Below are positions 16,601 through 40,869 of a stretch of DNA of 47,232 nucleotides, one piece after another. The DNA lies in the NCBI GenBank assembly GCA_024277375.1, contig JAJRVD010000002.1:1-47232 (forward strand). The letters are read 5' to 3'. The DNA is from Candidatus Omnitrophota bacterium (GTDB lineage: Bacteria; Omnitrophota; Gorgyraeia; Tantalellales; Tantalellaceae). A program made the position numbers and the translations under genes. The notes beneath the pieces are model-generated. The model did no database searches. It was not told the DNA's origin and worked only from the letters and a program-made list of their open reading frames with translations. The first letter of the stretch is position 1; the number at the start of each line of letters is the position of its first letter.

Positions 16601-16626
16601 ATGGTCAGTCAGACGATGAGGCGTAA
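13609..16626 (+). CDS. Giant polytopic membrane protein fused to a NapC-like cytochrome, cut by in-frame TAA
   Basis: About 850 residues of almost continuous hydrophobic helices (likely more than 20 transmembrane segments) make a domain I do not recognise. They are followed by a NapC/NirT-like segment, HPQFCSSCHYMDDYVESW, with CVDCH, CLREGCH and CTTCH. The reading frame then meets TAA, but the same frame continues with five more heme motifs that match the stand-alone NapC paralogue one for one. The full product would be about 1,117 aa with nine hemes; as read it keeps four. I prefer the GTG start with AAAAGG upstream; the ORF-track ATG at 13,585 lies in repeat-derived DNA. It sits directly upstream of hdrCBA, suggesting a membrane entry or exit point for Hdr electrons. 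Confidence 0.8.
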   Translation: MNRIGHILGLVFATILLFASKTFLLLNPIVSAGFLLLVSMFYVVCTVVSKRSLFLYPVMFFGALAYYLCLYGAGISYIWYPAHSFVLIVLLAIAKYIAGSRGKREYSNAFRKGINTTVAFFTFWALSFARTYWGSDPMVYVLAFFCYAVFYRVQNRLDPERRNLTYVWIFYGIVGTLALAGMQIFPPLVKTALLVLLVFALAHRSIKVYKKGGYFATMPFLIGILVSTFFAFVFFSRQWNVLAITFLFSSLAFWYVYKAIKEEIVGDHISNAGEKFLMIVFKSGFILLPVVFWGILLSKGFPPGYLNITLSLVFALFFAKLTRSPYKSLFKKRNHYVYLSGMFFTALVYLVVFSFERFISREYLFLFTPVWMAVLLSIADFFRKNEDLKRANSIIDVAFLPIAINAILLMTLNVFNPTLGMILSGITIVTLFMFLAILRSHIVFYSFSLASWFALYSVLRSVSASTQVFVLSYMTVALACALSGYLLTRKKNVTSNVFNFSLVLYSLTAIQLVPVGSSLRLVVLCSMAIVYLLLGALLSLNKKTDGLFSKIGHFCAGMIIFSVLSDKSFNQAIYASFALAVAYLLPLLLHKREKYAYPASLFAALGYLLLLIKICPSNWVMFAYLPLIAVFLFHRKAPAARTSVYFSSVAIAFWALTSSALVPIFAAGSSILYGIVFILFDRKAVSFTATFASFLFLGVYFLLNSFFPTEQAIMFFCVVTFILFVGGVLSRNVERIKQWSSAFTIAGVAFLFLAAVISAFAGAITATKTVVVLSSVAFVLTALIFRKEIFLYLLTLNMALLFFNFVQTSGTVFTQDLFVYFVYGTLLIGAFFVIPYVKRLRRYDRVFTMFTIANWKGILVYSIPVCVILVITLMLYAVKITEHPQFCSSCHYMDDYVESWEHSNHKDVKCVDCHYEPGVKAIAIGKVEGLVQLVKYMTHTYGSKPWAEVRDKSCLREGCHDKMDRKKPVIFEKGIPFAHSTHLDNPAQKHTLRCTTCHGQSDDEA

Positions 16627-17611: not shown

Positions 17612-18495
17612 AGTATGCCTATTTTCCGGGATGCTCACTACACGCGACAGCGGAAGAATACGCCCGATCAAGTGTCGCGGTTTGCGAAAAACTCGGTATT
17701 GAACTAGAAGAGATCGAAGATTGGTTGTGTTGTGGAGCTACACCCGCGCATATTACTAATCATCTAGCGTCTATTGCTTTACCTATAGCCAGTTGCGCGT
17801 GGGCTGAAAAGCAAAAGCTGGATGTTCTTACCTGCTGCGCGGCATGTTCCAGCAGGCTTAAATTGGCAAATCAGGAAGTGAAAGAAGATCCTGAGCTTCG
17901 CGCTAAGGTGAATAAAATTATTGAAGAGGACTATAAAGGAAATATAGAGGTACATCATATACTGGAAGTCCTCTCAAAAAAGGTGGGGTTCGAGAATCTA
18001 AGAGAACAGATCGTAAAGCCGCTCAATGGATTGAAGGTAGCTTGTTATTATGGCTGTCTTTTAACGAGGTTGCCTGAGCCTTTGCGGCTGGACAATCTTG
18101 AAGACCCCATGGTTATGGATGATCTCGCGACGGCAATGGGCGCGGAAGCGGTTGACTGGCCGTATAAAACCGAATGTTGCGGAGCTAGTCTCGCGGTTAT
18201 ACAGGAGCAAACAGTATTAAGGCTCGCTAATGACATTTTAACCATAGCTGAGGATAGCGGAGCCGAATGTATTCTTGTAGCCTGTCCTTTGTGTCAGTCT
18301 AACCTGGATCTGATGCAGTCGGGAGTAAATAAAAAATACAATAAAAACTTCAATATTCCGGTGTTTTATTTTACTCAACTTTTAGGGCTGGCGATGGGCA
18401 TAGATAGAGAGAAGCTGGCGTTATCAAAATTAATCGTTAACCCTTTCCCGCTTTTGGCGGAGAAGGGGTTCATAGAAAAAGAGGCGTATCTATAA
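17608..18495 (+). CDS. hdrB: Heterodisulfide reductase subunit B-like (HdrB)
   Basis: This is the catalytic subunit that reduces a disulfide at non-cubane [4Fe-4S] clusters. Two CCG domains are visible. The first has Cys9, WLCCGA (Cys41-42) and CCAAC (76-80). The second has CYYGCLL near 148, TECCGAS near 193 and CPLCQSNLD near 230. The length of 295 aa is normal. The bacterial substrate is unknown; in Flox-Hdr complexes a small disulfide such as a DsrC-type protein has been proposed, but no dsrC is visible here. AAGGAAG precedes the ATG, and the stop overlaps the hdrA start (TAATG). Confidence 0.93.
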   Translation: MKYAYFPGCSLHATAEEYARSSVAVCEKLGIELEEIEDWLCCGATPAHITNHLASIALPIASCAWAEKQKLDVLTCCAACSSRLKLANQEVKEDPELRAKVNKIIEEDYKGNIEVHHILEVLSKKVGFENLREQIVKPLNGLKVACYYGCLLTRLPEPLRLDNLEDPMVMDDLATAMGAEAVDWPYKTECCGASLAVIQEQTVLRLANDILTIAEDSGAECILVACPLCQSNLDLMQSGVNKKYNKNFNIPVFYFTQLLGLAMGIDREKLALSKLIVNPFPLLAEKGFIEKEAYL

Positions 18496-21215
18496 TGGCT
18501 AGAATAGGCGTATTTGTATGTTGGTGTGGTTCTAATATCGCGGAAACGGTTGATTCCGAAGGCGTAGGGGAATATGCCGCGAAGTTGCCGGGCGTTGCAG
18601 TCTCAATGGATTACAAATATACATGTTCGGACCCCGGACAGAAAATGATAATCGAGGCTATCCGGGAGCATAAACTGACCGGAGTTGTTGTCGCTTCATG
18701 TTCTCCGCGTATGCATGAGACTACCTTTAGACGAACTGTTGCCGGTGTGGGGTTGAATCCCTATTTGCTTGAGATGGCAAATATACGGGAGCATTGCTCA
18801 TGGGTGCATCATGACAAGGAAGCAGGCACAGAAAAGGCAAAGATATTGGTTCGTATGATGGTAGAAAAGGTGAAACATAATCATAAGTTATATCCTATCA
18901 AAGTACCTGTGACAAATAGAGCTCTCGTAATCGGCGGGGGTATTGCCGGCATACAGGCCGCGTTGGATATCGCGAAGGAAGGTCATGAAGTAATAATTGT
19001 GGAAAAACAACCATCAGTGGGTGGGCATATGTCGCAGTTGGATGAAACTTTTCCAACGTTGGATTGTTCTCAGTGTATATTGACTCCCCGTATGGTAGAA
19101 ATAATCCAGGATAAAAATATAAAACTCTATGCCTACTCGGAAGTCGAATCGGTAAGCGGTTTTATCGGCAATTTCAAAGTAAAGATCCGCCGCAAAAGTC
19201 GCTACCTGAAGGAGAGTGAATGTACCGGTTGTTCTGATTGCGAAGAACCATGTCCGGTAGAACTTAAGAATGAATTTAACGAAGGTTTGGATACCCGCAA
19301 AGCTATTTATCGTCCATTTACACAGGCTGTTCCGAATTCATTTCTTATCGAGAAAACAAAAGAACCGGCCCCGTGTAAAGTGGTTTGTCCTATAGGACAG
19401 AATGTGCAGGGTTATGTAGCTTTAATGTCTAAAGGTAAATTTAAGGAAGCACTTAAAGTTGTGCGCGAAACCAATCCGTTCCCGTCGGTTTGCGGGAGGG
19501 TTTGCACCCACGTTTGTGAAACCGCGTGCAACAGGAGCCGTATAGATGAGCCTATTTCAATAGCGTCACTAAAAAGAGTTTTGGGAGACTTTGAGGCCGC
19601 CAATCCGGAGCTTATAACATACGCGAAACCTGAAGAAACAAAATCTGAAAAAGTTGCTGTTGTCGGCGCCGGTCCTGCCGGACTTGTATGTGCTTATGAC
19701 CTGGCAAAAGCGGGATATAAAGTTAAAGTGTTTGAATCTACACCCGTGGCGGGCGGGATGCTCTATTTAGGTATACCGGAATATCGGCTTACTCGCGATG
19801 TTATTGCCAGGGAGGTAAAGGCTATCCAGGATATGGGTGTTGAGATAGAACTGAATTCGCCGGTTGATGACGCGCAAGAACTCTTGAAAAAGGGATATAA
19901 AGCTGTTTTTCTCGGTATTGGTTGTCAAAAAGGAAAAGACCTTGGAATAGAGGGTGAAGATGCCGAAGGCTCTACGGACGCTGTCGCGTTCTTGAAAAAG
20001 GTGAACCTCGGAGAAACAACTAAAGTAGACGGTAATGTTATTGTTGTAGGTGGTGGTAACTCCGCTATCGATGCCGCGAGAAGCGCGCTTCGACTGGGGG
20101 CTAAGCAGGTAAAGATAGTTTACAGACGCTCTAAAAAAGAAATGCCCGCCGATCCGAGAGAAGTTGAAGATGCTGAGAAAGAAGGCGTGAGCATAGAGTT
20201 TCTTTCCAATCCGACCAAAGTAATAACTGAAAATGGCAGGATAACCGAGGTAGAGTGTTTAAGGATGGAACTCGGTGAACCTGACGGATCCGGGCGAAGA
20301 AGGCCTGTGCCCGTAAAAGGATCTGAATTTATTATCAAATCAGACCTCTTAATAAGAGCTGTAAGCCAGGCTATGGAACAGGATTTTGATAAGTCCGAAA
20401 ATATTAAATTAAGCAGGTGGAAAACTGTTGATGTAGATCCGTTGACACTGGCGACTTCAGTCGATGGAATATTTGCCGGCGGCGACGGTGTTAATGGACC
20501 GGAAACCGTAGTTAGAGCAATGGAAGACGGATATATCGCGGCAGAATCTATAAAGAGGTTCTTAACTTCCCGAGACCTGAAAGAAGGGCGTAACTTTCCT
20601 GCTCATAAGGTCACCGAAGAACCGGCAGAGAGGCTTTTTGAGGGAGTTGAAAAAGCCTCGAGAGTAAAAATACCTGAAATATCGATTGAGGACAGAAATA
20701 ACTTTAAAGAGGTAGCGAGTGTTCTTTCCGATGAGGACGCGATCAAGGAGGCTAAAAGATGTCTTAATTGCGGGATATGTTCCGAATGCGGGGAATGCGG
20801 CAAAGCGTGTGAAAAGGATCTGATAGACCATAATATGGAAGATGAGATCGTCGAAGAAGATGTGGGCGCTATTGTTGTCGCGACGGGATATGATCTTATG
20901 GACCCATCGGTATATGAAGAGTACGGCTACAAAAAATATCCGGATGTATTGACCAGTTTAGAATTTGAGAGAATGGTAAGTGCCTCCGGGCCGACAAACG
21001 GAAAGTTAATAAGGCCTTCAGACGGACAAACACCTAAAAATGTGGTTTTTGTCCAATGTGTCGGATCCCGGGATGAAGATAAAGGGTATCCGTATTGTTC
21101 AGGGATATGCTGTATGTATACGGCAAAGCATACGATGCTTTTTAAACATAAAGTTCCTGACGGAAAAGCTTTCGTTTTCTATGTCGACGTTCGAGCTTCA
21201 GGGAATAACTATTAG
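18495..21215 (+). CDS. hdrA: HdrA with inserted GltD-like domain, cut by in-frame TAG
   Basis: HdrA carries the FAD at which electron bifurcation occurs. The N-terminal domain is followed by the FAD loop ALVIGGGIAGIQAA (about 143-156) and the HdrA motif CSQCILTPRMVE. A ferredoxin-like CTGCSDCEEPCP is near 242. From about 294 to 740 a complete GltD/NfnB-like NAD(P)H module is inserted (CGRVCTHVCETAC, VAVVGAGPAGL, VIVVGGGNSAIDAARSA). HdrA sequence resumes with CLNCGICSECGECGKAC, VFVQCVGSRDE and PYCSGICCMYTAKH. The frame stops at TAG after FYVDVRASGNNY, yet the remaining HdrA C-terminus follows in the same frame. The full product would be 1,122 aa. Confidence 0.88.
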   Translation: MARIGVFVCWCGSNIAETVDSEGVGEYAAKLPGVAVSMDYKYTCSDPGQKMIIEAIREHKLTGVVVASCSPRMHETTFRRTVAGVGLNPYLLEMANIREHCSWVHHDKEAGTEKAKILVRMMVEKVKHNHKLYPIKVPVTNRALVIGGGIAGIQAALDIAKEGHEVIIVEKQPSVGGHMSQLDETFPTLDCSQCILTPRMVEIIQDKNIKLYAYSEVESVSGFIGNFKVKIRRKSRYLKESECTGCSDCEEPCPVELKNEFNEGLDTRKAIYRPFTQAVPNSFLIEKTKEPAPCKVVCPIGQNVQGYVALMSKGKFKEALKVVRETNPFPSVCGRVCTHVCETACNRSRIDEPISIASLKRVLGDFEAANPELITYAKPEETKSEKVAVVGAGPAGLVCAYDLAKAGYKVKVFESTPVAGGMLYLGIPEYRLTRDVIAREVKAIQDMGVEIELNSPVDDAQELLKKGYKAVFLGIGCQKGKDLGIEGEDAEGSTDAVAFLKKVNLGETTKVDGNVIVVGGGNSAIDAARSALRLGAKQVKIVYRRSKKEMPADPREVEDAEKEGVSIEFLSNPTKVITENGRITEVECLRMELGEPDGSGRRRPVPVKGSEFIIKSDLLIRAVSQAMEQDFDKSENIKLSRWKTVDVDPLTLATSVDGIFAGGDGVNGPETVVRAMEDGYIAAESIKRFLTSRDLKEGRNFPAHKVTEEPAERLFEGVEKASRVKIPEISIEDRNNFKEVASVLSDEDAIKEAKRCLNCGICSECGECGKACEKDLIDHNMEDEIVEEDVGAIVVATGYDLMDPSVYEEYGYKKYPDVLTSLEFERMVSASGPTNGKLIRPSDGQTPKNVVFVQCVGSRDEDKGYPYCSGICCMYTAKHTMLFKHKVPDGKAFVFYVDVRASGNNY

Positions 21216-21863
21216 CAGTTTGTCAGGCGTGTTGTTAAGGAGAAAAAGGCAATATATTTACGCGGTAGGGTAGCGAAAGTATTTCCTCTGGGACCAAAGC
21301 TCATTGTTAGAGGTGCCGACACTCTAAGTGGAGGGCAGATCGAGATAGAAGCGGACATGGTAGTTCTGGCTACGGCTGTGACGGCGGCTCCAGGAGCGGA
21401 TAAGCTTGCGCAGACATTGAAAATTTCCTATGATGAGCATAATTTTCTTTCGGAAGCTCATCCGAAGTTACGTCCGGTTGAGACTAATACCGCGGGTATA
21501 TTTTTGGCGGGTACATGCCAGGCTCCCCGGGATATTCCTGAAACTGTCGCTCAGGCATCGGGTGCCGCGGCAAAGGTATTGGGTATAATTCATGGTAATG
21601 AACTGGAAAGAGAGCCCGCGACCGCGATCGTGGACGAAACCAACTGCAACGCGTGTTTCGACTGCGAGAAAGTATGCGCTTATAACGCGGTAGAGGAAAA
21701 AGAGATCAAAAACAGAAAAGGTGAACTAATAAAAGTTGTTGCCAGTATAAACCAGGGGATGTGTCAAGGGTGCGGGGCATGTGCCGCGTCCTGTAGATCC
21801 GGATGCATAGATGTTCAGGGCTTTACGGATGAACAGATATACGCGGAAATATTGGCAAGTTAA
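21216..21863 (+). pseudogene. hdrA: C-terminal part of HdrA after the TAG
   Basis: It is in frame with the upstream HdrA and begins QFVRRVVKEKKAIYLRGRVAKVF, the normal continuation of the HdrA FAD domain. It ends with two [4Fe-4S] motifs, CNACFDCEKVC and CQGCGACAASCRSGC, which link HdrA to HdrC or MvhD. The ORF track shows only the part from an internal ATG. Without it HdrA lacks its two C-terminal clusters, so the break would disable the complex unless the codon is read through or is a sequence error. No ribosome binding site is evident at the join. Confidence 0.85.
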
Positions 21864-21876
21864 TTCAGCATTCGGG

Positions 21877-22062
21877 CTGTGTCGTAATTCGTTTTGCGGA
21901 TGGCCGCGTACAATATGTTTGTGGATGGCCGCGTACAATATGTTTGCGGATGGCCGCGTACAATATGTTTGTGGATGGCCGCGTACAATATGTTGTAGGG
22001 GTTCGATTTATCGAACCCGATATAACGGGCTTGATGAATCAAGCCCCTACATTATGACACAG
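21877..22062 (+). repeat. MITE-like repeat, expanded copy A5
   Basis: A 186-bp copy bounded by CTGTGTCGTAAT and GACACAG, longer than its relatives because a 25-bp internal unit is present four times. It lies between hdrA and the mvhD-like gene, so the hdr-flx transcript would contain this hairpin-rich insert. Confidence 0.87.
21896..21994 (+). repeat. Four tandem 25-bp units within MITE copy A5
   Basis: The unit G(C/T)GGATGGCCGCGTACAATATGTTT is repeated four times, with C and T alternating at the second base (units 1 and 3 against 2 and 4); the last unit is one base short. The C/T alternation suggests that a 50-bp pair was duplicated. Other copies of the element hold one unit. Confidence 0.9.
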
Positions 22063-40347: not shown

Positions 40348-40869
40348 ATGCTGAAAATGAAATTTCCACTCCTCAAAATTTTCACTATTTTTCTTTGTTG
40401 TATTTTTCTGTTCAACACTGCAACACAAGCTCTTGACTTTTCAACACAAAATTTAAATGCGCCTTTATCATCAGGTGAAAGTGGTTTGATTGAAGCCTCT
40501 GGGGCTCTTACGTCAAACATATCGCTCAAAGCAGATGCCACGTTCCGCAATTTTACGTTATTTCTCGCGAAAAATCTTTTAGCGGACGGAAGGGATGATA
40601 CAGAGGTAAGGAAAATAGTAAGCGATTTCATCTCCGAGCTTACTTCGGAGTCCGCATTGTTATTCTTTGAGCTAAAGATGCAGATAGATTTCTCTGGAAT
40701 ACGTGAAGCTGGTGGGATCACATATATTCCTTTTCTAACATCTGGCCCAGATAGACAAAACATTCCTGGATCTATATCCATATCCAAGGCTAATAATCCG
40801 CTGATCAAGCAAGACCCGCGTTGGCAGCGTTATAATACGTATGCAGCTTTAGTGCAGTCGAGAGATTAG
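40348..40869 (+). CDS. N-terminal part of the giant secreted protein, ending at in-frame TAG
   Basis: It begins with a signal peptide (KFPLLKIFTIFLCCIFLFNTATQA) and then an unrecognised domain starting LDFSTQNLNAPLSSGE. The frame stops with TAG after ALVQSRD and continues in the same frame as RIIPSKDMSG into the 1,645-residue ORF. GTG-rich AAAGGGTG lies before the ATG, and a promoter with TATAAT lies upstream. As read it is a 173-aa exported protein. It is more likely the front end of one very large protein, because the downstream ORF has no signal peptide or ribosome binding site. Confidence 0.75.
   Translation: MLKMKFPLLKIFTIFLCCIFLFNTATQALDFSTQNLNAPLSSGESGLIEASGALTSNISLKADATFRNFTLFLAKNLLADGRDDTEVRKIVSDFISELTSESALLFFELKMQIDFSGIREAGGITYIPFLTSGPDRQNIPGSISISKANNPLIKQDPRWQRYNTYAALVQSRD

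Follow-up and report, generated by a model that had tools for sequence, protein, structure and literature searches.

The type III HdrA proteins of soluble heterodisulfide reductase consist of the HdrA core and a GltD-like domain situated in the ferredoxin-domain region; nine such sequences, all archaeal, have been described (PMC12054007). A GxGxxG motif was reported for the inserted domain, and NADH was proposed as the electron donor or acceptor (PMC12054007). The hdrA gene considered here, which encodes an electron-bifurcating enzyme, lies in a window of 47,232 nucleotides, the whole stretch of DNA analysed, from the draft genome of a Candidatus Omnitrophota bacterium. It carries a GltD domain inside HdrA, the feature that defines type III in PMC12054007, and the insertion is likewise in the ferredoxin-domain region of the core. 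Judged by its domain content, this is a type III HdrA on a bacterial contig, whereas those described so far come from archaea. The reading frame is interrupted by a single TAG, and the relevant features are as follows.

18495–21863, forward strand: hdrA reading frame (HdrA with an inserted GltD-like domain), 1122 amino acids on read-through, supported by domain and model matches.
19368–20729, forward strand: inserted GltD/Nfn-like pyridine nucleotide oxidoreductase domain, about residues 292–745; the homologues compared lack an equivalent here.
21204–21206, forward strand: hdrA codon 904, Asn (AAT) in a column that is Lys in every aligned homologue.
21213–21215, forward strand: in-frame TAG, hdrA codon 907, where homologues have Glu or Asp; fits a single G>T change in a Glu codon.
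21216–21860, forward strand: open stretch of 215 codons past the TAG, encoding the remainder of the FAD domain, then the C-terminal ferredoxin domain.
21642–21806, forward strand: C-terminal 4Fe-4S dicluster domain of HdrA (Fer4_7 match, residues 1050–1104).

The inserted domain has two nucleotide-binding motifs, GAGPAG and GGGNSA. The latter has the form GxGxxA as against the GxGxxG of PMC12054007, which may refer to either of the two. No match to the insert was found at any of 80 bacterial HdrA homologue loci. The neighbours of hdrA on the contig are hdrC, hdrB, an mvhD/FlpD gene and Nfn-like genes, and a 25-base tandem repeat in 4.1 copies (21893–21994 of the window) is situated directly 3' of hdrA. 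In two of the closest homologues, L067:1043-6008 and L068:201-5250, HdrA is split in the same region that carries the insert: its N-terminal half carries a fused NuoE-like domain, the two halves are separated by a NuoF-like gene, and the C-terminal half follows a NuoG-like N-terminus (names are from translations). This region of HdrA seems to be a point where NAD(P)H modules are exchanged. Contig C104 of the same genome (L062:8684-18390) contains further hdrA genes, including one fused, double-HdrA-like frame of 1087 codons.

Read through the TAG, positions 18495–21860 encode a 1122-residue protein of the HdrA family with X at position 907. HdrA models match on both sides of the stop, the HdrA2 model in the N-terminal part and the methanogen HdrA models at residues 760–1119; the best of the latter are NF040770 and NF041891, although the whole-protein scores are below their curated cut-offs. 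The TAG is followed by the codon CAG, and exactly 215 codons are open up to the TAA at 21861. This part of the frame has strong coding potential under a periodic Markov coding model and contains two CxxCxxCxxxC motifs, CNACFDCEKVC and CQGCGACAASC. The sequence-only reading had described a seamless HdrA frame around the TAG, 215 open codons past it and two [4Fe-4S] motifs in the missing part, and all of this holds. A protein ending at residue 906 would lack one half of its FAD domain as well as the two final clusters, and therefore the truncated HdrA would be expected to be inactive. The open frame extends far beyond chance, yet about 30 comparable stops, this TAG included, occur in the third of the genome that was sampled.

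The column of codon 907 is occupied by Glu (61) or Asp (27) in close homologues from many phyla, with no stop among them. After removal of duplicate local contexts, Glu is seen in 37 and Asp in 17 of the 54 distinct stretches, again without a stop, in agreement with the earlier expectation of Glu at or near this site. Lys occupies this column in a divergent HdrA paralogue from this genome. The closest homologue, L067, reads NYEQFVRRV here, with Gln next to the Glu position and no stop. Hence the Gln encoded by the CAG after the TAG appears to be inherited. The sequence-only reading had taken this CAG as a hint of readthrough, and the hint is not supported by the Gln of L067 or by the 30 stops, around which no common sequence context, downstream or otherwise, was found. 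Programmed readthrough via the CAG context was rejected on the latter ground. Three codons upstream, Lys904, invariant in homologues, is replaced by AAT; this fits a second G>T change within 10 bases upstream of the TAG, A>T being also possible.

The survey of other stops covered 714 kb in stretches, about one third of the 2.07 Mb draft genome. Candidates were required to have coding sequence on both sides according to the periodic Markov coding model, and were then judged by homology and inspection. It yielded 30 comparable in-frame stops: 16 TAA, 13 TAG and one TGA. Two of them lie within the window in addition to the one in hdrA.

16624–16626, forward strand: in-frame TAA in an NrfH-like multihaem cytochrome, with CxxCH motifs continuing past the stop.
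40867–40869, forward strand: in-frame TAG that splits a giant secreted-type protein; related genera encode this protein in one uninterrupted frame.

NCBIfam models span the stop in BamA, formate-THF ligase, RsmI, RsmE and QEGLA. Other interrupted genes, named by sequence inspection and orthologue matches, encode IF-2, ArgRS, Dxs, NadE, FolC, ScpA, ProA, a UvrD-like helicase, PEP carboxykinase and a 2-oxoacid oxidoreductase. The 5 kb contig C5 (L253) has two in-frame TAA stops, at 1492 and 2557, in what is apparently one long gene. Composite queries, that is, 120-residue segments, were searched in the genome itself and in up to 25 relatives. The stop was recovered at the own locus in 16 of 16 cases from the first set and in all 11 cases searched from the second. 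In the relatives, orthologues are intact except for matches that overrun the segment end, where terminal stops are expected; almost all of the few stops reported there come from such matches, which were not viewed one by one. As a control, 391 kb of sequence from two relatives was scanned with the same coding-model method, which produced weak candidates and no strong one.

Codons for Glu, Ser and Gly become stops through G>T or C>A, while those for Lys, Gln, Trp and Leu are also one step from a stop. At the 12 sites where the original residue is best determined by orthologue comparison, it is Glu (8), Ser (3) or Gly (1), and never Lys, Gln, Trp or Leu. Under equal single-base changes, the chance that these three residues account for all 12 sites is about 2e-6. 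Outside this set, Lys is the only residue seen at the site in a TPR protein, in a single relative. A likelihood fit on 21 sites assigns about 18 events to the G>T/C>A class (2dLL 13.2 against equal rates), at a rate about eight times that of the next class, and the hdrA stop falls in this class with a share of 0.99. The C>T class, which would include changes in CAA and CAG, receives no events. At about seven of the 21 sites the relatives have Ala, Pro, Val or Asp, none of them one step from a stop, and therefore an intermediate residue has to be assumed. TGA (1 of 30) is rarer than expected under a simple G>T/C>A model (P about 0.01). Invariant columns were compared for additional G>T missense changes, in a comparison of low power and partly against paralogues; the AAT at Lys904 of hdrA is among the departures, and in the neighbouring hdrB, hdrC and mvhD, all with open frames, there are none or almost none.

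The simultaneous loss of IF-2, ArgRS, BamA and the others is not survivable for a living cell. The essential genes that are hit cannot all be dead, and therefore either the bases are wrong or suppression is efficient; the G:C>T:A signature and the absence of a detected suppressor favour wrong bases. As about 30 similar stops exist, essential genes included, the TAG in hdrA is most likely a base error and neither a truncation nor a special reading of the stop. We put the probability that the assembled consensus is in error at this base, and that the living gene has no such stop, at roughly 80%. The consensus of the draft genome would then contain scattered G:C>T:A changes, one of which would have converted the Glu codon of hdrA to TAG, and these changes would have arisen in the DNA or in the data rather than in cells. 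A likely chemical cause is the oxidation of guanine to 8-oxoG in DNA of thin coverage, by analogy with the G>T artefacts from oxidised DNA documented in human exome data (PMC12390751). The two cases are alike in the G:C>T:A class and in the changes being scattered and not common to relatives; they differ in that the artefacts of PMC12390751 come from human exome data, whereas those suggested here are deduced from an assembled draft genome sequence alone. Of the three explanations that the sequence-only reading had considered possible, nonsense mutation, sequence error and readthrough, it is thus the sequence error that is favoured, by the stops in many essential genes, their absence from relatives and the G:C>T:A signature, and the other two are disfavoured.

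A real, recent nonsense mutation in the sampled population, leaving a non-functional 906-residue product, is unlikely. The remainder of the hdrA frame is clean, as expected of a recent event, and the other HdrA genes on contig C104 might stand in for the lost one, but the other stops, roughly 29 and many of them within essential genes, would be left unexplained, and the adjoining hdrB, hdrC and mvhD are open and show no or hardly any departures at invariant columns. Bacterial nonsense pseudogenes resemble this locus in having a single stop in an otherwise clean frame, and differ from the present set in that here the stops are too many at one time, affect essential genes and are skewed to G:C>T:A. 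The stop might also be real with translation restarting downstream, so that HdrA would be made as two polypeptides. No start codon occurs within 47 codons of the TAG; an in-frame ATG is available at 21357, but the 47 codons before it are strongly coding, no ribosome-binding motif is seen upstream of it, and no homologue is broken at the position of the TAG, the only split ones found (L067 and L068) being broken elsewhere. We regard such a split gene as highly improbable.

That the stops are real throughout the genome and are read by a UAA/UAG suppressor tRNA or through broad leaky termination is very unlikely, although 29 of the 30 are TAA or TAG in frames that are otherwise clean, essential genes among them, and the shortage of TGA fits a suppressor reading UAA and UAG. 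The genome is 95.7% complete, and no CTA or TTA anticodon is present among the 37 tRNA genes found; since tRNA-Phe, tRNA-Asn and tRNA-Ile are missing from the assembly as well, the tRNA list is incomplete. A genome with in-frame UAA/UAG stops in essential genes, on the order of 90 by extrapolation from the sampled part, tolerated through a suppressor tRNA encoded in the unassembled few per cent, is a shade less probable again. RF1 is present, 352 of 447 long ORFs terminate in TAA or TAG, the interrupted residues vary (Glu, Ser, Gly), and the stops share no context and are absent from related genera. The empty C>T class, the one that ordinary mutation would supply, also speaks against suppression. 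Reassignment of TAG was rejected, since TAG commonly terminates genes: 130 of 447 long ORFs (29%) end in it. The least credible option is that the TAG at position 907 encodes pyrrolysine or has some other dedicated reading. An in-frame TAG with a conserved frame beyond it is what such a reading would need, and pylT/pylS and suppressor tRNAs had been suggested as the place to look; but along with the missing anticodons, the PylS search of the genome gave only two sub-threshold matches (31 and 24 bits, where the cut-off is 178, a value passed by one control genome in a set including M. acetivorans), the homologues have Glu or Asp, and other genes are interrupted likewise by TAA and TGA. Finally, a mutator arising by loss of MutY or MutM was rejected: neither is above the cut-off here, but the same is true of most related genomes, which have no such stops, and thus this loss leaves the difference unexplained.

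If the stops were real, this would be a notable bacterial case of tolerated nonsense codons. On the preferred reading, a consensus base error, the bases need to be checked for errors before any apparent pseudogene or recoded stop of this draft genome is taken for biology, and a simple test, combining stops in essential genes, the class of base change and comparison with relatives, could screen other draft genomes. As for the organism itself, it probably makes full-length HdrA.
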